Shown here: piece after piece, positions 11,079 to 62,337 of the stretch
Layout: each line of letters starts with the position of its first letter
Position numbering within the stretch: position 1 is the stretch's first letter
Source: Qipengyuania gaetbuli
Lineage (GTDB): Bacteria; Pseudomonadota; Alphaproteobacteria; Sphingomonadales; Sphingomonadaceae
Direction of reading: 5' to 3'
Assembly: GCF_009827315.1 (NCBI RefSeq)
Contig: NZ_WTYF01000004.1
Coordinates: 1,364,001 to 1,428,000 of the forward strand
Length of the DNA: 64,000 bases
Notes under the pieces: model-generated
Databases searched by the model: none
What the model was told of the DNA's origin: nothing
Seen by the model: the letters and a program-made list of their open reading frames with translations, nothing else
Position numbers and translations under genes: made by a program

Positions 11079-12650
11079 TCAGGCCATGTTCGGGTCGTTC
11101 CAGGCGAGCACCGGCTTGCGGGCGGCCTGGGTTTCGTCGAGGCGGCGACGCGGCGCGTAGTGCGGCGCGGTCTTCATCGTCTCGTCACCCGCCTTCGCCC
11201 GTTCCGCAACGCTGCGCAGCGCCATGATGAACTGGTCGAGCGCCGCCTTGCTCTCGGTCTCGGTCGGCTCCACCAGCATCGCGCCATGCACCACCAGCGG
11301 GAAATACATGGTCATCGGGTGGTAGCCCTCGTCGATCAGCGCCTTGGCGAGATCGAGCGTCGAGAGGCCCTCTGCAAAACCGTCGTCCGAGAACAGCGCC
11401 TCGTGCATGCACGGGCCGCTCGGCCCGAAAGGTGCATCGAGCACGTCGTCTAGGCTACGCAGGATGTAGTTGGCGTTGAGGACCGCGTCTTCCGCCACCT
11501 GCTTGAGACCGTCCGCGCCGTGGCTGAGGATATAGGTCAGCGCGCGGGTGAACATGCCCATCTGCCCGTGGAAGGCGGTCATGCGGCCGAAGGCCTGCAC
11601 ATGGCCGTAATCGGCAGCGTTCTCTTCCTCGACGAGGTGGACCACTCCGTCGGCAGTGCGCGCCGTGAACGGCAGCGGACCGAAGGGCGACAGGGCCTCG
11701 GACAGCACCACCGGGCCCGAACCCGGGCCGCCGCCGCCATGCGGGGTGGAGAAAGTCTTGTGCAGGTTGATGTGCATCGCATCGACGCCGAGGTCACCGG
11801 GGCGGACCTTGCCGACGATGGCGTTGAAGTTCGCGCCGTCGCAATAGACGAACCCGCCCGCCGCGTGCACCGCGTCCGAGATCGCCTTCATGTCGCGCTC
11901 GAACAGGCCGCAGGTGTTGGGATTGGTGATCATCACCGCGGCAACGTCGGGGCCGAGGCGGGCCTTCAGGGCCTCCAGGTCGACGCGCCCTTCCGGGGTC
12001 GCGGGGATGTCTTCCACCTCGTAGCCGGCAAAGGCGGCGGTGGCGGGATTGGTGCCATGGGCGCTTTCGGGCACCAGCACGACCTTGCGCGCATCGCCGC
12101 GCGCTTCGAGAGCGGCGCGAATGCACAGGATCCCGCACAGTTCGCCATGCGCGCCTGCCTTGGGGCTCATCGCGACGCCGTGCATGCCGGTCAGCTCGAT
12201 CAGCCAGTGAGCGAGCTCGTTGATGACTTCCAGCGCACCAGGCACGGTCTGCACCGGCTGGAGCGGATGGACATCGGCGAAGCCGGGCATCCGCGCGACC
12301 TTCTCGTTGAGGCGCGGATTGTGCTTCATCGTGCAGCTTCCGAGCGGGAAGAGGCCGAGATCGATGGCGTAGTTCTGGCGCGAGAGGCGCGTGTAGTGGC
12401 GCACGGTTTCCGGCTCGGACAGGCCGGGCAGGCCGATCGCTGCCGCACGCTCCAGATCGCCGAGGCGCGTGGCAGCGCCGGAAGGTTCGGGCAGGTCAAC
12501 GCCGGTCGTCTCGACATGGCCGATTTCGAACAGCAGCGGCTCTTCGAGCATCAGCGCACGGTTGCCGGTCACGGTGTCGGGGCCGCTCATAGCGTTGTGG
12601 TCCTGGACAGGGGTGCCGGGCTTCCAGCCGGACTGGTTGGGCGCGTTCAT
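11079..12650 (-). CDS. gcvPB: Glycine dehydrogenase (decarboxylating) subunit 2
   Basis: This 523-residue beta subunit is the PLP-carrying half of the two-subunit glycine decarboxylase (P-protein). The cofactor lysine is about residue 298 in [14 protein letters not shown], and CDGANFNAI and [11 protein letters not shown] are family hallmarks. With GcvPA it decarboxylates glycine and passes the aminomethyl group to the lipoyl arm of GcvH. The ATG at 12650 overlaps the gcvPA stop by four bases (ATGA), so the subunits are translated in step. It is the last gene of gcvT-gcvH-gcvPA-gcvPB. Confidence 0.95.
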
Positions 12651-14008
12651 GCGAGCACCTCCTCGAGCGCGGAGGCAAGGGTTTCGACGTCCTCCTCCGT
12701 GGTGGTTTCGGTGACCGCGACCAGCAGGCCGTCGGCCAGTTCCTCGTTGTCCGGATAAAGCCGGCCCAGCGACACGCCGCCGAGAATGCCGCGGTCGGCC
12801 AGCTTGCGCACGACCTTGCGCGCGTCCTGGCCGAGGCGGACGGTGAATTCGTTGAAGAAGCTGTCGTTGAGCACGCTCACGCCGGGGACCTTGGCCAGCC
12901 GGTCGGCGGCGTGGCAGGCGAGGCGGTGGTTTTCCATCGCCAGGCGGCGCAGGCCCTTCTCGCCGAGCAGCGTCATGTGGACGCTGAATGCGAGCGCGCA
13001 GAGGCCCGAGTTGGTGCAGATGTTGCTCGTCGCCTTCTCGCGGCGGATGTGCTGCTCGCGGGTCGAAAGGGTAAGCACGAAGCCGCGCTTGCCCTCGGCA
13101 TCGACAGTCTCGCCGCACAGGCGGCCGGGCATCTGGCGCACGTGCTTGGGATCGCGCACCGCAAAAAGGCCGAGGTAGGGACCGCCGAACTGGAGGCCCA
13201 CGCCGATCGACTGGCCTTCGCCCACAACGATATCCGCACCCTGCTCACCCGGAGATTTGATCGCCCCCAGCGCCACCGGTTCGGTGTTGACGACAATCAG
13301 CAGCGCGCCCTTTTCATGCGCGGCATCGGCGATCTGCTGCAGGTCGGGCAGGCGACCGAGGATGTCGGGATACTGGACCACGACGCAGGAGGTCTGGTCG
13401 TCGATCCGCGCGATCAGGCCGTCATTGTCGGGGTGAGCCTGCAGTGCCGGGCGCGCATGGGCGATCTCGTCCTCGGTGAACTTCGCCATGGTCTTGACGA
13501 CCTCGGCATAGTGGGGGTGGAGCGCGCCCGAGAGTACGACGCGCTTCTTGCGCGTAACGCGCCCGGCCATGGCCACCGCTTCCCAGCACGCGGTCGAACC
13601 GTCGTACATCGAGGCATTGGCGACCGCACAGCCGTAAAGGCGGGCCACCTGCGTCTGGAATTCGAACAGCATCTGCAGCGTGCCCTGCGCGATTTCCGGC
13701 TGGTAGGGCGTGTAGGCGGTGAGGAATTCGCCGCGCTGGATGATGTGGTCGACGCTTGCCGGCACGTGGTGGCGATAGGCCCCTGCCCCGAGGAAGAAGG
13801 CCGCATCGGCCGCTGCGAGGTTCTTCTTCGACAGTTGCCGCATATGCTTTTCGACCGCCATTTCGCTGGCGTGCATCGGCAGGCCTTCGATCGGGCCGGA
13901 CAGGCGCGCCGCTTCCGGCACGTCTACGAACAGCGCATCCATATCGGGTGCACCGATCTTTTCCAGCATGGCCGAACGGTCGGCATCGGTAAGCGGCAGG
14001 TAACGCAT
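12647..14008 (-). CDS. gcvPA: Glycine dehydrogenase (decarboxylating) subunit 1
   Basis: This 453-residue alpha subunit of the P-protein has the N-terminal segment [10 protein letters not shown], then [27 protein letters not shown] and [14 protein letters not shown], all diagnostic of GcvPA. It lacks the PLP lysine, which is on GcvPB, as expected for the split form. The start 14008 lies 38 bases after gcvH. Expression should follow the glycine riboswitch ahead of gcvT, since no other promoter-sized gap occurs in the cluster. Confidence 0.95.
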
Positions 14009-14421: not shown

Positions 14422-15597
14422 TCAGTTCCCTCTGTGATAGCGATGGGGGACGAAGGGCATGGGTACGACCTTCGCCGGCAGTCTCTTGTTACGAACCTCG
14501 ATCTCGACCTCGGTTCCCGGTTCGGTATGGCTTTGCGCCAGATAGCCCATGGCGATGGGCGCGCAGAGCGTGGGCGAGAAGCCGCCGCTGGTGATGCGGC
14601 CGATCTGCTTGTCGCCGTCGAACACCAGCGCACCTTCGCGGGCGGGCAGGCGCCCTTCAAGCGAGAGGCCGACGCGCTTCTCCGCCGGACCTTCGTTGAA
14701 GACCTTCATCACGGCCTCGTGGCCCATCCAGCCACCTTCCTCGCGGCGCTTCTTGGTCAGCGCGAAGACGAGATCGGCGGATACCGGATCGGTTTCGGTA
14801 GTGATGTCGTGGCCGTAAAGGGGGAGGCCCGCTTCGAGGCGCAGGGAATCGCGCGCGCCGAGGCCGACCGGGCGAACCTCGATTTCGGCACACAGGCGAT
14901 CGCACAGGCTCTCGGCGAATTCGGCGGGCACGGAAATCTCGAACCCGTCCTCGCCGGTGTAGCCCGCGCGCGTGATTCGCAGTGGCCATTCACCGAAGTC
15001 GTACGTCACGCTTTCCATGAAGACCATGTCGTCGATGACGTTGCGCATGACGCGGTTGAGCGCGGTCGCGGCATTCGGACCCTGCAGCGCGATCAGCGCC
15101 TGTTCGTCGAGATGGGTCAGGGTGATTTCGTCGGGCAGGTGCTCGCGCAGATGGGCGATGTCGTCCCATTTGGTCGCACCGTTGACGACGAGGTAATAGG
15201 CCGGATCGCCCCAGTGCCCTTCGGTGCCGGTCTCCTCGTCGGCTTCGATCCAGGGCGTGGCATTGGTGACCATGAGGTCGTCGATGATCCCGCCGTTCTC
15301 GTCGATCAGCAGCGAATAGCGCACTTTGCCCGGCTTCAGCGAGGCGATTGCGCCGGGCAGCAGCTTCTCGAGCTCTTCCGCCACGTTCTCGCCGGTCAGC
15401 ATGAGCTGGCCCATGTGGCTCACGTCGAACAGGCCCGCCTGCGTGCGTGTCCATTCGTGTTCGGCAACGATGCCGTCGAACTGGATCGGCATTTCATAGC
15501 CGGCAAAGGGCACCATGCGCGCGCCCTTGCCGCGATGCCACGCGTCGAGCGGCAGCTTCTCGATTTCCTGCACAATGTCGTCGTTATCGTCGCTCAA
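14422..15597 (-). CDS. gcvT: Glycine cleavage system T protein (aminomethyltransferase)
   Basis: The 391-residue aminomethyltransferase moves the methylene group from lipoyl-GcvH to tetrahydrofolate, releasing ammonia and making 5,10-methylene-THF. The motifs GYEMPIQFDG, LFDVSHMGQL, ITRAGYTGEDGFEI and the C-terminal ITSGGFSP loop are characteristic. The best start is TTG 15597, with GAGGA seven bases upstream; starting later would remove the region just before the conserved LDAWHRGKGARMVPF. Its leader, about 60 bases upstream, is a tandem glycine riboswitch, so the whole gcv cluster should be induced by glycine. Confidence 0.95.
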   Translation of the reverse strand: MSDDNDDIVQEIEKLPLDAWHRGKGARMVPFAGYEMPIQFDGIVAEHEWTRTQAGLFDVSHMGQLMLTGENVAEELEKLLPGAIASLKPGKVRYSLLIDENGGIIDDLMVTNATPWIEADEETGTEGHWGDPAYYLVVNGATKWDDIAHLREHLPDEITLTHLDEQALIALQGPNAATALNRVMRNVIDDMVFMESVTYDFGEWPLRITRAGYTGEDGFEISVPAEFAESLCDRLCAEIEVRPVGLGARDSLRLEAGLPLYGHDITTETDPVSADLVFALTKKRREEGGWMGHEAVMKVFNEGPAEKRVGLSLEGRLPAREGALVFDGDKQIGRITSGGFSPTLCAPIAMGYLAQSHTEPGTEVEIEVRNKRLPAKVVPMPFVPHRYHRGN

Positions 15598-15656
15598 GAC
15601 CCGTCCTCAAAGCCAAGCATGGCAGCGCCCGGAGCGGACGCCGTTACAACCCATGC

Positions 15657-15847
15657 CCCCTCTGTCGGGTGACCTGAGAGACTGGCCTGCAAATGAGCAG
15701 GTTTACCCCTTCGGTGGCGCATCGCGACTGGCACGAAGCGCGCTTTCCAGAGTGTCGATGGCAGCGCACGGTCCTGAGGCCTGAGAGTTTCCGGGGCGGT
15801 TGCTCCTTCGGCGCTGGCGGGTGTCCCCGGACCAGCTCTCCCATGCG
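15657..15847 (-). promoter_or_regulatory. Tandem glycine riboswitch upstream of gcvT
   Basis: Read on the minus strand, this leader contains two copies of the glycine-aptamer core. Aptamer 1 (about 15845-15777) has GGGAGAGC, then GCCGAAGGAGCAA, and ends AAACTCTCAGGC. Aptamer 2 (about 15730-15657) has GCCACCGAAGGGGTAAAC, then CTCTCAGG and finally GACAGAGGG. These are the conserved blocks of the known gcvT-type riboswitch, in the usual two-aptamer arrangement with a linker of about 45 bases. It ends about 60 bases before the gcvT start and should switch on glycine cleavage when glycine is plentiful. The region 15598-15938 holds nothing else I can identify. Confidence 0.93.
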
Positions 15848-15938
15848 CGCCTGCCGCAGAATCGCTCCCGTGGCCGACGGGAAACGCCCTGCGCGATAAG
15901 CGGGGCGCGGTCAATTCCCTTGGGTAGCCGAAATGCGC

Positions 15939-58457: not shown

Positions 58458-59867
58458 GTGAGCGCACAACGCATCGGTCTGGTAATCGGCATTCTTGCCC
58501 TGCTGGCAGGCATTTTCGCGCCTTTGCCTGCGGGGATGGAACGCGGGGCCGGGATCGTTGCCGGCCTCGTCGTCCTCATGGCCGCATGGTGGATGACCGA
58601 GGCGCTGCCGCTGACGGCGACGGCGCTGATGCCGTTCCTCGTGCTGCCCTTTGCCGGAGTGATGGACGCAAAGACTACGGCATCGGCCTATTATTCGCCC
58701 ATCCTGTTCCTGCTCCTGGGAGGTGCCTTCATCGCCCTCGCCATCGAGCGCACCGGATTGCACAAGCGCCTGGCGCTCGCGCTGCTGCGCATGGTCGGCG
58801 GGCGCGGCGGGCAGGCCGGCGTGCTGCTGGCCTTCATGGCGACAGCGGCGATCCTGTCGATGCTGATCTCCAACACCTCCACCGCGCTGATCATGATGCC
58901 CATGGCCGTCGCCGTGCTGGCAGGCGGGGGCATCGGCGATGAGGACACCGAAGGCCTGTCGGGCGCCCTGCCCATGGGGATCGCCTTTGCGGCCAGCATC
59001 GGCGGGCTCGGCACGCTGGTCGGATCGCCCACCAATGCGATTGCCGTGGGCCTGCTCGACACGCTGACCGGCACGCGCATCACTTTCGCGCAGTGGGCCT
59101 TCTACGGCCTGCCGGTTGTCGTGATCGGGGTGCCGCTGGCCGCCTTCCTCGTCGCGCGGGTCCAGAAGGTCGCGGCGCATCCCTTCGATGCGCGCGCCGC
59201 ACGCACGGCGATCGACACGCATTCTGCCTGGTCGAGCGCGGAGAAGCGGCTGGTCCCCGTCGTCGCAGTGACCTTCCTCTTGTGGATGGGGCAGATGTGG
59301 ATCGCACCCTATCTGCCGGACGGATCGCTGACCGACGGCACCATCGCCATCCTGATGAGCCTGACGCTGTTCCTCCTGCCCGATGGCACGGGCAGGCCGC
59401 TGCTGACCTGGGACGAGGCGAACCGCGCGCCATGGGGCGTCATCATGATGTTCGGCGGCGGACTGGCGCTGGCGGCCGGCATGGCGGCGAGCGGCCTTGC
59501 CGACTGGTTGGGGCAGGCCCTGTTGCCGCTGGAGGCCTGGCCGCTGGTGCTCGTCGCGATTGCCGTGGTCGCGATGGTCGTGCTGATCACCGAGTTCGCC
59601 AGCAATGTCGCCACGGCCAGCGGTATCATCCCGGTCGTCGCCAGCCTCGTCGTGGCGCTGGGGGCCGATCCGGTCCTGCTCGCCATGCCGGCCGCACTTG
59701 CGGCGAGCTGGGGCTTCATGCTGCCGGCCGGAACCGGTCCCAATGCCATCGCCTGGTCGACCGGTCGCATCCGCATCGAACGGATGGTCAAGGCAGGCCT
59801 GCTGCTCGACCTGTTCGGCATCGTGATGATCGTGGCCGTGGTGTGGGGCATGAACGCGCTGCTCTGA
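58458..59867 (+). CDS. SLC13/DASS family anion:sodium symporter
   Basis: This 469-residue inner-membrane transporter has about eleven helices. The two substrate/sodium-binding hairpins carry the SNT-type motifs: MLISNTSTALIMMPMA near residue 135 and ITEFASNVATASGIIP near residue 378. Family members import dicarboxylates, citrate or sulfate with sodium. It starts at GTG 58458 with a GGGAGAG site upstream. Substrate is not determined by sequence; the downstream sulfur-amino-acid gene leaves sulfate open, but the motif resembles the dicarboxylate branch more. Confidence 0.87.
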   Translation: MSAQRIGLVIGILALLAGIFAPLPAGMERGAGIVAGLVVLMAAWWMTEALPLTATALMPFLVLPFAGVMDAKTTASAYYSPILFLLLGGAFIALAIERTGLHKRLALALLRMVGGRGGQAGVLLAFMATAAILSMLISNTSTALIMMPMAVAVLAGGGIGDEDTEGLSGALPMGIAFAASIGGLGTLVGSPTNAIAVGLLDTLTGTRITFAQWAFYGLPVVVIGVPLAAFLVARVQKVAAHPFDARAARTAIDTHSAWSSAEKRLVPVVAVTFLLWMGQMWIAPYLPDGSLTDGTIAILMSLTLFLLPDGTGRPLLTWDEANRAPWGVIMMFGGGLALAAGMAASGLADWLGQALLPLEAWPLVLVAIAVVAMVVLITEFASNVATASGIIPVVASLVVALGADPVLLAMPAALAASWGFMLPAGTGPNAIAWSTGRIRIERMVKAGLLLDLFGIVMIVAVVWGMNALL

Positions 59868-60004: not shown

Positions 60005-60162
60005 CTGTGGGACCGGTCGCAGTTGAAACCAACATCGCTCCAACATAAGAGATGGCCCACAGCGGCTGTCGGCGGAGAGGCGTTCCTGCGGAGGTTAGGA
60101 ACGGGCGCCCCGGCAGCCTCATCGGCCCCCGCCTTCCTGGGGGCGAAGATACAGGAAGGATG
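60005..60162 (+). promoter_or_regulatory. Structured 5' leader with anti-Shine-Dalgarno hairpin, candidate riboswitch
   Basis: The 303-base gap 59868-60170 contains, in its last 160 bases, consecutive stems. A: CTGTGGG (60005-60011) with CCCACAG (60056-60062). B: GGCTGTCGG (60064-60072) with CCGGCAGCC (60110-60118), nine pairs including one G-U. B1, nested in B: CGTTCCT (60081-60087) with AGGAACG (60097-60103). C: GCCCCC (60125-60130) with GGGGGC (60139-60144). The loop of C contains CCTTCCT (60132-60138), exactly complementary to the ribosome-binding site AGGAAGG (60153-60159) of the downstream gene. It matches no riboswitch consensus I can recall (SAM-I, II, IV, V, SAH or cobalamin). Bases 59868-60004 hold nothing I can identify. 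Confidence 0.55.
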
Positions 60163-60170
60163 CTCGCGCC

Positions 60171-61433
60171 ATGAGCGACGTCACCAAGATCAACGGCCGC
60201 CCCCTGAAACCCAGCACGCTGATGATGGGCCACGGTTACGACCCCGTGCTGTCCGAAGGCAGCCTCAAGCAGCCGCTGTTCCTCACCAGCACCTTTGCCT
60301 TCCCCAGCGCCGCCGACGGCAAGCGCCATTTCGAAGGCATCACCGGCAAGCGTCCGGGCGGTGCGGACGGCCTCGTCTATTCGCGCTTCAACGCGCCGAA
60401 CCAGGAAATCCTCGAAGACCGCCTGTCCATCTGGGACAGCGCGGAAGACGCCCTGTCCTTCTCCAGCGGCATGTCCGCGATCTGCGTCCTGCTGCTGACC
60501 TATGCCAGCCAAGGCGACGTGATCGTCCATTCGGGACCGCTCTATGCCGCGACCGAAGGCTTCGTCGCCAAATGGCTGAGCAAGTTCGGCGTCAGCTACA
60601 TCGACTTCCCGGCCGGCGCGACGCGCGAAGAGATCGACGCCGTGCTGGAACAGGGCAAGGCCAAGGCCGCCGAACAGGGCGGCAAGGTCTGCATGGTCTA
60701 CCTCGAAAGCCCGGGCAATCCGACCAATGCGCTGGTCGACGTCCAAGCCGTGCGCGCCGCGGTCGACGCAGCGGGGCTGGAATGCCCGATCGCGATCGAC
60801 AACACCTTCCTCGGCCCGCTGTGGCAGCGCCCGCTCGAACATGGTGCGGACATCGTGGTCTATTCGCTGACCAAGTACGTCGGTGGCCATTCGGACCTCG
60901 TCGCCGGCAGCATCGCCGGGGCCAAGAAGTGGATGGACCCGGTGCGCATGCTCCGCAACACGATGGGCGGCATCTGCGATCCGAACACGGCATGGATGCT
61001 CTGCCGCAGCCTCGAAACCGTCGAACTGCGCATGCAGCGGGCGGGCGAGAATGCGGAAAAGGTCTGCGCCTTCCTTGCCCAGCACCCCAAGGTCGAAGGC
61101 CTCGGCTATCTTGGCATGATCAAGGATGCGCGCCAGCAGGACATCTACGACCGCCATTGCCTCGGCGCAGGCTCGACCTTCTCGCTGCTGCTCAAGGGCG
61201 GCGAGGCTGAATGCTTCCGCTTCCTCGACAGCCTCAAGATCGCCAAGCTGGCGGTCAGCCTAGGCGGCACCGAGACGCTGGCCAGCCACCCGGCCTCGAT
61301 GACGCACCTCTCGGTGCCGGACGAGCGCAAGGCGGCGCTGGGCATCGGCGACAACCTGATCCGCATCTCGATCGGGATCGAGGACGCGGACGACCTCATC
61401 GCCGACTTCGAACAGGCGCTGGAACAGGTCTGA
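60171..61433 (+). CDS. Cystathionine gamma-synthase family PLP enzyme
   Basis: This 420-residue Cys/Met-metabolism PLP enzyme carries its cofactor lysine at K235 in YSLTKYVGGHSDL. Other family blocks are VYSRFNAPNQEILEDRLS (tetramer and PLP contacts), SSGMSAI, ESPGNPTN and TLASHPASMTH. Members include cystathionine gamma-synthase, cystathionine gamma-lyase, O-acyl-homoserine sulfhydrylase and methionine gamma-lyase, and the sequence does not separate them. ATG 60171 has AGGAAGG 11 bases upstream, which is the element contacted by the leader hairpin. An ATP-grasp gene follows two bases after the stop. Confidence 0.88.
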   Translation: MSDVTKINGRPLKPSTLMMGHGYDPVLSEGSLKQPLFLTSTFAFPSAADGKRHFEGITGKRPGGADGLVYSRFNAPNQEILEDRLSIWDSAEDALSFSSGMSAICVLLLTYASQGDVIVHSGPLYAATEGFVAKWLSKFGVSYIDFPAGATREEIDAVLEQGKAKAAEQGGKVCMVYLESPGNPTNALVDVQAVRAAVDAAGLECPIAIDNTFLGPLWQRPLEHGADIVVYSLTKYVGGHSDLVAGSIAGAKKWMDPVRMLRNTMGGICDPNTAWMLCRSLETVELRMQRAGENAEKVCAFLAQHPKVEGLGYLGMIKDARQQDIYDRHCLGAGSTFSLLLKGGEAECFRFLDSLKIAKLAVSLGGTETLASHPASMTHLSVPDERKAALGIGDNLIRISIGIEDADDLIADFEQALEQV

Positions 61434-61434
61434 A

Positions 61435-62337
61435 GTGACGACAAGGATCGGCTTCCTCGCCTGCGCCGACACGCTGCCTCCGCCTGAAGGCGCAGCGGAC
61501 GAACGGCGCGGGGACGCTTTCGAGCACGATCTCGAGACCGCGGCCCTGCGCCCGGCATTCGCTGCGACGGGACTGGAGCTGGTGGAGATCGACTGGCGCG
61601 CACCGCTGGGTGAGTTCGAGGGTATGGCCTTGGTCATGCTCGGCACGGCCTGGGACTATCAGGACCATCCGGACGAGTTCCTCGACAGGCTGGAAGCCCT
61701 GGCCGGCATGGGTATTGCAGTCTGCAATCCGCCGGACGTCGTGCGGTGGAATGCGGACAAGCGCTATCTTCGCGAGCTGGAAGAGCGCGGCGTGACCACC
61801 GTACCCACGCTCTGGCTCGACGATCTCAACCATGCGGACGCGTTGGAGGCGATGGACGACTTCGCCTGCGAGCGCATCGTGGTCAAGCGGCAGGTCGGCG
61901 CAGGAGGCCTCGGGCAGCACAGCTTCTCGCGCGCCCAGCTGCCCGCAGAGGGCTGGCGCATGGGTCGCGCCTGCATGGTCCAGCCGTTCCTGTCGAGCGT
62001 TGTCGAAGAGGGCGAATACACCTTCCTCTTCATCGATGGCGCCTTCAGCCACGGCGTGCTGAAGCGGGCGGCGGAGGGCGAATACCGCATCCAGTCGCTC
62101 TATGGCGGCTACGAATGCGATTTCGAGCCCGATGCCGCCGATCTCGCCAGGGCACAATCGGTGGTCGCTTCGCTGCCGTTCGACCGGCCGCTATATTGCC
62201 GCATCGACATGGCGCGCCTGCCTTCAGGTGACCTTGCGGTGATGGAAGCCGAAATGATCGAGCCCTACCTCTACCCGCAGCAGGGGCCGGAACTCGGCAA
62301 ACGGATGGCCGAGGCCATTCTCGGCAGGCTGGGTTAG
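61435..62337 (+). CDS. ATP-grasp domain ligase
   Basis: This 300-residue protein of the RimK/glutathione-synthetase/DcsG-like ATP-grasp group shows IVVKRQVGAGGLGQHSF with the ATP lysine and glycine-rich loop (residues about 147-163), EEGEYTFLFIDGAFSHGVLK, and CRIDMARL...EAEMIEPYL, which supplies the metal-binding acidic residues. It should couple a carboxylate to an amine or thiol with ATP. The GTG start at 61435 is two bases behind the cystathionine-gamma-synthase-family gene. The pair is probably one operon under the structured leader. A sulfur-amino-acid-containing product is a tempting guess, without direct evidence. Confidence 0.8.
   Translation: MTTRIGFLACADTLPPPEGAADERRGDAFEHDLETAALRPAFAATGLELVEIDWRAPLGEFEGMALVMLGTAWDYQDHPDEFLDRLEALAGMGIAVCNPPDVVRWNADKRYLRELEERGVTTVPTLWLDDLNHADALEAMDDFACERIVVKRQVGAGGLGQHSFSRAQLPAEGWRMGRACMVQPFLSSVVEEGEYTFLFIDGAFSHGVLKRAAEGEYRIQSLYGGYECDFEPDAADLARAQSVVASLPFDRPLYCRIDMARLPSGDLAVMEAEMIEPYLYPQQGPELGKRMAEAILGRLG

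Follow-up and report, generated by a model that had tools for sequence, protein, structure and literature searches.

Pseudoknots that hide the Shine-Dalgarno (SD) sequence are classic in protein-mediated control, as in T4 gene 32 and rpsO, and these leaders share with the preQ1-type riboswitches an H-type pseudoknot in which a hairpin loop pairs with the downstream SD. Some SAH and SAM/SAH riboswitches also hide the SD, and the SAM-II riboswitch is itself a small pseudoknot. In the accessible part of PMC9373788, SAM-II (SAM_alpha, RF00521) is described as an alphaproteobacterial element located ahead of methionine genes, with translational control predicted for metA, and the accessible part of PMC4239095 assigns SAM_alpha to Rhizobiales and Rhodobacterales and gives only the SahR regulator for Sphingomonadales. 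The same portion of the latter source describes the metXZ RNA element of beta-proteobacteria, a candidate regulator of homocysteine-synthesis genes that occurs in single copy per genome ahead of metX or metZ and acts at the transcriptional level, a terminator following it (PMC4239095).

The leader analyzed here, at positions 60005-60162 of a 64,000-nt stretch of Qipengyuania gaetbuli DNA (the window), lies on the plus strand, as do all features below unless indicated, ahead of a PRK07049-type gene of cysteine/methionine metabolism (ORF 60171-61433, 420 aa, a PLP enzyme with PF01053). This ORF passed the model NF005455/PRK07049, "cystathionine gamma-synthase family protein," with 653.9 bits against a cut-off of 504, and remained below the cut-off of the methionine gamma-lyase model TIGR01328 (337.7 vs. 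549.7 bits). Within the leader, positions 60064-60159 form a conserved RNA element, about 95 nt long, made up of three stems, the last loop and the complementarity between this loop and the SD. The element resembles SAM-II in its alphaproteobacterial setting, methionine-gene context, putative small pseudoknot and putative translational control, but differs from it in having two hairpins with the conserved loops GCGGAGGUU and GCCUUCCU and no Rfam match. It resembles the SAH (RF01057) and SAM/SAH (RF01727) riboswitches in being Proteobacterial and associated with SAM-cycle genes, whereas it has no Rfam match to them and precedes a different gene. The preQ1-type riboswitches and the gene 32/rpsO leaders would work alike, by a loop pairing with the downstream SD, but the present element has in addition, further upstream, a distinct P1-P2 domain that bears a conserved loop of its own, precedes another gene and again lacks an Rfam match. 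As far as the accessible text of PMC4239095 goes, the metXZ element is likewise a single-copy candidate RNA regulator of homocysteine-synthesis genes, and it is set apart from ours by its description (beta-proteobacterial, transcriptional, ahead of metX or metZ).

The preliminary description of this leader had seen no fit to the SAM, SAH or cobalamin riboswitch consensus and had proposed an Rfam scan as a check. Scanning the whole window against Rfam 15 at gathering scores returned tRNA and glycine riboswitch matches only, and recovery of these in the same window indicated that the scan works. The leader itself yielded, up to E = 10, two snoRNA-type matches of 15.0-15.6 bits against cut-offs of 45-49, neither of them credible, and 20 relatives yielded no matches up to E = 0.1; the element thus matches no family of Rfam 15, the SAM, SAH, SAM/SAH, cobalamin and preQ1 families included. 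No description of it was found in the openly readable literature searched, and no such element appears in the accessible parts of PMC4239095, PMC6970198, PMC11109978, PMC8632094 and PMC6429828, which include large RNA discovery papers. The suggestion that this could be an undescribed RNA of sulfur amino acid metabolism therefore holds in its first half, as neither an Rfam match nor a published description was found; its second half depends on the ligand, as discussed below. By analogy, the element would act like the riboswitches with SD-hiding pseudoknots while lying outside every family tested. Our main reading, to which we assign a probability of roughly 0.57, is that translation of the PRK07049-type enzyme is controlled in cis by the roughly 95 nt with which its mRNA begins, these acting as an orphan translational riboswitch with an SD-hiding pseudoknot.

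By comparative evidence, the element is composed, in order, of a P1-P2 hairpin with an internal loop and the loop L2, a linker, the hairpin P3 with the loop L3, and, in most leaders, an SD complementary to L3. The 5′ strand of P1 (60064-60075; GGCTGTCGG, a bulged C at 60073, and GG) is followed by a conserved internal-loop strand AGANGC (AGAGGC in the window, 60076-60081) and by the 5′ strand of P2 (GTTCCT, 60082-60087), which is defined by pairing and compensatory changes. The loop L2 (GCGGAGGTT, 60088-60096) contains an SD-like GGAGG and leads into the 3′ strand of P2 (AGGAAC, 60097-60102), recovered by RNAalifold and by covariation, the 3′ side of the internal loop (GGGC, 60104-60107, from the alignments A1 and A3 described below) and the 3′ strand of P1 (CCCCGGCAGCC, 60108-60118), assigned from the minimum free energy (MFE) fold and from coevolution. 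The two strands of P3, GCCCCC (60125-60130) and GGGGGC (60139-60144), are again defined by pairing and compensatory changes and enclose L3 (GCCTTCCT, 60131-60138). The anti-SD part of L3 (CCTTCCT, 60132-60138) is exactly complementary to AGGAAGG (60153-60159), just as the preliminary description had it; AGGAAGG sits 11 nt 5′ of the ATG at 60171 and would provide stem 2 of the proposed H-type pseudoknot. With stems of 6 and 7 bp and loops of 1, 0, and 8 nt, the modeled geometry in the window would be that of a classic H-type pseudoknot. P1, P2, and P3 are all present in the MFE fold of the window leader. The folding energy of the leader, however, is ordinary for its composition (z −0.51, with 60 of 200 shuffles folding equally well), so that single-sequence folding provides no evidence, and AGGAAGG appeared by chance in 132 of 20,000 shuffles of the 26 nt separating P3 from the ATG. 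These two measures aside, conservation and covariation among relatives constitute the decisive evidence beyond chance. The MFE fold also contains a small hairpin, GCUC…GAGC, around the start codon (60162-60176), which by eye is apparently common in the genus where the protein begins with MSD.

Four stems had originally been claimed, and P1, P2, and P3 were found to be conserved, whereas the first was not. That first stem would join CTGTGGG (near 60005) to CCCACAG (near 60056); only 3 of 60 genus genomes have the two arms in exact form, and the stem straddles a promoter-like TTGA, on which grounds it was dropped. Judging from the sequence, it probably lies outside the transcript. The promoter-like region (60023-60051) includes TTGAAA (60023-60028) and a −10 region resembling CATAAGAG. 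TTGA was present in 57 of the 60 genus genomes and lay 65-69 nt 5′ of GGAGGTTAGG in 55 of these, and from this fixed distance the transcript is expected to begin close to P1, with a predicted mRNA start at about 60058-60062, just 5′ of P1. An imperfect palindrome, AGTTGAAACCAAC, at 60021-60033 overlaps the −35 region; GTTGAAACCAAC occurs in 23 of 60 genus leaders, and GTTKC-N4-GAAAC-like palindromes were seen upstream of 6 of 40 homologs lacking the element. The upstream palindrome is perhaps a transcription factor site, possibly for SahR, that was kept or replaced.

To describe the distribution, leaders from 60 genomes of the genus were picked by a protein search for the gene and not by the element. 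The gene was found in 60/60 genomes and the element ahead of it in 60/60, with GGAGGTTAGG and its surroundings present in all 60 of these leaders chosen via the gene alone; one leader (L051) escapes a stricter regular expression because its P2 carries a compensated change. A core pattern with up to two mismatches was matched in 51 of 199 family genomes and gave zero control matches. The named-genome collection (84,980 genomes, one per species) was scanned for AGANGCGNNNCTGNGGAGGTTAG, a pattern that includes neither P3, L3, the SD nor the gene, which yielded at least 120 stretches. Among the 120 matches listed, 119 have a PRK07049 gene downstream, at most 260 nt away and in the same orientation; at the remaining one (L306) the locus extends only 141 nt beyond the match start. 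The 80 titles listed among these matches were Erythrobacter, Qipengyuania, Citromicrobium, Porphyrobacter, Aurantiacibacter, Altererythrobacter, Novosphingobium and similar Sphingomonadales, together with metagenome-assembled genomes named only as Alphaproteobacteria or Proteobacteria; the carrier group consists of marine and soil bacteria.

Covariance-model searches delimited this range. Model R1 matched 144 of 396 genomes of the order at E ≤ 0.1, chance matches included, 4 of 385 genomes of the class, where the sole match outside the family reached 25.9 bits, and 6 of 299 genomes of the phylum at E ≤ 0.01, where the sole match outside the family, in a genome outside the class (G1038), reached 31.1 bits. 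The broader model R2 matched 66 of 236 genomes of the order at E ≤ 0.001, 63 of them with at least 54 bits and 3 with less than 35, and 2 of 200 genomes of the class, both within the family of the window. Strong matches outside this family were therefore absent from the 299 phylum genomes and from the 385 (R1) and 200 (R2) class genomes. When 40 lower-scoring R1 matches were fetched to seek other target genes, all 19 with at least 39 bits preceded a PRK07049-type gene, and the 21 with less than 34 bits had no PRK07049-type gene following; 14 of these 21 match on both strands and are palindromes. In the order searches with R1 and R2 the element was nearly always single-copy, second matches occurring in a few other genomes such as G347; the matches that were read point to a single site in each genome and a single associated gene. 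The same enzyme family occurs without the element elsewhere in the family and in other families, and 40 sequences lying ahead of the gene in genomes that had no strong model match gave at best 8.5 bits with filters off. Some lineages thus employ an RNA for a gene that their relatives retain without one.

The preliminary description had made its case depend on conservation and covariation of stems and loop among relatives, and both proved strong. In alignment A1 (71 leaders), RNAalifold recovered the inner pairs of P1, together with P2 and P3, unprompted; under the structure described above, 92.1% of cells were paired and 68 cells were changed on both sides, a result reached by 0 of 500 shuffles and compared with 5-36 cells when the partners were slid by 1-3 columns. 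In A3, with 70 more diverse leaders, 87.7% of cells were paired and 15 of 19 pairs showed both-side changes, amounting to 134 cells, against 0 of 500 shuffles and 26-77 cells for slid partners. Alignment-free, anchor-based counts on 181 unique leaders showed that each of the six positions of P2 pairs in 178-181 leaders, with many compensatory changes at positions 2-4, and that each position of P3 pairs in 175-181 leaders, with compensatory changes present. Fitch parsimony on a FastTree tree of the enzyme, with the 143 of 181 leaders whose enzyme had at least 300 aa, counted for P2 and P3 64 double and 64 single pair-keeping changes, 14 breaks and 1 restoration, compared with 1-4 double changes for slid partners, which cover fewer pairs. 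In the same table the gene strand showed 121 G-U wobbles against 4 A-C mismatches, which identifies the structure as RNA of the mRNA strand and not as DNA or antisense RNA. For P1, own strands had a mean of −14.5 kcal/mol compared with −11.7 for swapped strands (sd of the swapped means 0.11; 181 leaders) and ranked among the top 10% of swaps in 61 of 181 leaders. All six P1 pairs of A3 showed both-side changes; a fixed register fits only 66-78% of cells, and the 66% in A3 is due to the register shifting between species. By this comparative evidence, P2 and P3 covary and P1 coevolves. With its fixed place before one orthologous gene and its covarying stems, the element has the marks of a conserved structured cis-regulatory RNA, and we consider it virtually certain that a conserved, structured RNA lies on the mRNA strand just 5′ of the start codon.

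The two loops are also strongly conserved, L2 as GCGGAGGUU and L3 as GCCUUCCU or, rarely, GCCUCCCU. The leaders used in the loop, stem and SD counts match G-NNN-CT-G-N-GGAGGTTAG within 320 nt of the gene match, and this selection fixed most of L2, the two adjoining P2 pairs and the first G of the P2 5′ strand, so that the constancy of L2 and of these pairs there is built in; the loci from the named collection and from the family were likewise selected by the core pattern. Under this selection, L2 is GCGGAGGTT in 175 of 181 leaders, and the other 6 differ at the second base, the sole base left free. The filter dropped seven leaders that have both element and gene (L128, L130, L131, L134, L138, L139, and L141); six of them retain CTGCGGAGGTTAG, and L138 has the shorter loop TGGAGGT, still reading GGAGGT. 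Compensated P2 changes occur among them as well (GCGACCU/AGGUCGC in L134 and GCAUCCU/AGGAUGC in L130). AGANGC, found in 172 of 181 unique leaders, was part of the pattern used on the named collection and absent from the genus protein search and the family core pattern. As for L3, GCCTYCCT is matched by all 253 leaders of the SD-pairing set, which include same-genome repeats (181-182 unique); L3 reads GCCTTCCT in 176 of 181 and GCCTCCCT in 5 of 181; in one of the five (L239) the loop had been misplaced, and its true L3 is GCCTTCCT. GCCTCCCT also occurs in 4 of the 7 dropped leaders. L239, from Sphingomonadaceae, has two CCTYCCT stretches close together and possibly a rearranged P3.

Part of the conserved L2 could in principle be read as coding. 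An upstream ORF ending at the TAG of GGTTAG would make the leader an attenuator responding to cysteine or methionine supply, and the in-frame TGC GGA GGT TAG is indeed conserved, giving MRSCGG* where an ATG is present, as it is in the core of 66 of 181 leaders. However, 44 of 181 leaders have no in-frame ATG, GTG, or TTG within 90 nt, the start position varies where one is present, and the changes in P2 are compensatory. Since a conserved short ORF with a start codon was thus not found, the peptide-leader attenuator was rejected, and we regard it as extremely improbable.

The pairing between L3 and the SD was examined in 180 leaders, all of which were scored with the consensus loop GCCTTCCT and not with their own loop, using ATG starts only for element leaders and ATG or GTG for controls. 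At least 7 contiguous bases, G-U allowed, pair with the pre-start region in 140 of 180 leaders, compared with 3 of 39 homologs lacking the element (1 of the 40 had no start); with Watson-Crick pairs only, the counts were 133/180 and 0/39, and shuffled loops reached at least 7 pairs in 3.5%. L239 counts as 0 in this set because of its misplaced loop, and its true loop reaches 7, as do the dropped leaders L134, L138, and L139. Fifteen of 180 leaders pair at most 5 bases with the SD region, some of their starts being possibly misassigned. The distance from P3 to the start codon is 21-26 nt in most leaders, and the spacer from P3 to AGGAAG is 6-10 nt in 142 of 181, with no AGGAAG within 30 nt in 33. 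In L238 and L253 (Citromicrobium), L3 is GCCUCCCU and the SD is GGAGGC, both changed and still complementary over 6 bases. L026, L029, L032, and L258 have GCCUCCCU, yet their SD remains GGAAGG, leaving a mismatch; the first three count as 7 under the consensus loop, whereas the own loop of L026 and L029 gives a run of 3, and L032 has the same loop and SD as these two. In L128, L130, L131, and L141, which were dropped by the filter and are absent from the 180, L3 is also GCCUCCCU and the own loop pairs only 3-4 bases. The P2 and loop spacing of this lineage is shifted by one base.

The sequence features of an H-type pseudoknot sequestering the SD are therefore found in most leaders and not in two GCCUCCCU lineages. 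The translational control through loop-SD pairing suggested in the preliminary description applies accordingly to most leaders, and the two lineages with the changed loop depart from it: SD pairing is the rule but not universal, and L3 is conserved even where the SD mismatches. From these sequence comparisons, it is quite probable that the SD is hidden by an L3-SD pseudoknot in most species. In most leaders, the same pairing would explain the final third of the element if P3 and its loop simply tuned translation as a structured ribosome-binding site or RNA thermometer with no specific signal. We consider such an explanation improbable, because it leaves unexplained the conservation of L2 (60/60 genus leaders) and AGANGC, the covarying P1-P2 domain, and the conservation of L3 despite a non-matching SD.

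In the proposed riboswitch mechanism, the pairing of L3 with the SD, well supported though not in every lineage, would form the H-type pseudoknot that hides the SD (OFF), the P1-P2 domain with L2 would serve as the sensor, and a small molecule from the metabolism of sulfur amino acids or SAM would, once bound, shift the balance between the OFF state and an SD-free ON state, in which L2, whose GGAGG mimics the SD, may hold L3 in a kissing complex. We lean towards the element being a candidate metabolite riboswitch, with ligand binding and switching as predicted properties; a ligand from sulfur amino acid or SAM metabolism, suggested by the single associated gene, has in our estimate slightly less than an even chance, one gene per genome giving little hint of the ligand. 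An argument against a ligand pocket is that the internal loop varies between genera on its 3′ side, which is unusual for a pocket: this strand is GGGC in the window and a CCCUGG- or GCCA-type strand in some genera. At least three types of this strand (GGGYG, CCCUGG, and GCCAG) follow the genera, as seen at L063, L065-L068, L076, L124, L219, and L228, and the pocket or its specificity may differ by type if a ligand binds there.

The same conserved parts can be explained by a protein-binding leader, in which the enzyme itself or another protein would bind P1-P2/L2 and stabilize or open the L3-SD pseudoknot. Proteins commonly bind at a conserved loop carried by a covarying stem, and an element before one gene only, nearly always once per genome, fits autoregulation; the enzyme, however, shows PF01053 and a weak PF00155 in Pfam and no RNA-binding domain, and the same enzyme family occurs in other genera without such a leader. 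We therefore judge this explanation unlikely, albeit one to be taken seriously. The conserved unpaired SD-like and anti-SD-like loops could also be met by the seed of a trans-acting sRNA at L2 or L3, but the covarying P1-P2 structure would then be superfluous, which makes an sRNA target very improbable.

Within the riboswitch reading, we tentatively propose an exchange of loop partners. The calculated L2-L3 pairing is −7.3 kcal/mol and becomes −10.2 with the loop changed from GCCUUCCU to GCCUCCCU, whereas the SD-L3 pairing goes from −11.1 to −6.6 kcal/mol, so that the loop change favors L2-L3. The mismatch of the two GCCUCCCU lineages to their own SD is what would be expected if L2-L3 is the pairing that must stay, and the lineage of L128, L130, L131, and L141 offers a natural test of which loop pairing matters. 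On the other hand, the L2-L3 complementarity is unremarkable for its composition, as 556 of 5,000 permutations of L2 pair as well, for which reason the exchange is kept as a hypothesis; random 9-mers pair with L3 as well as L2 does in 81 of 5,000 cases. It is accordingly doubtful, though conceivable, that the element represents a new class of loop-exchange riboswitch shared by the Erythrobacter/Qipengyuania/Citromicrobium group with some Novosphingobium-like lineages, in which L2 and the SD compete for L3 and a sulfur amino acid or SAM-cycle metabolite is sensed. If L2 and the SD truly compete for L3, this would be a compact switch, of value to designers and to research on pseudoknot control. 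Conserved, with covarying stems, in well more than 100 genomes that represent different species, and unmatched in Rfam, the RNA is in any case an orphan riboswitch candidate.

The direction of control would depend on the role of the enzyme, being feedback repression if it is biosynthetic and induction if it is degradative. The genome itself encodes paralogs of methionine gamma-lyase (L324, above cut-off), MetZ-like (L325, just below) and MetC (L326, above) type, and the PRK07049 enzyme is thus not plainly the sole sulfur-transfer enzyme. What we take to be the active-site cysteine motif of methionine gamma-lyase is absent from the PRK07049 enzyme and present in the L324 paralog. As the enzyme is annotated merely as a family member, identification of the ligand would reveal its role. 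Around the gene, a DASS/Na-sulfate symporter gene is the immediate upstream neighbor in 108 of the 151 loci that extend far enough (window 58458-59867), and an ATP-grasp protein, DcsG-like but below cut-off, just downstream in 45 of 106 loci (window 61435-62337). Elsewhere in the window, a tandem glycine riboswitch with two RF00504 aptamers of 57.7 and 45.8 bits is located at 15652-15853 on the minus strand, where by eye it precedes GcvT-like (14422-15597, minus strand) and GcvPA-like (12647-14008, minus strand) ORFs.
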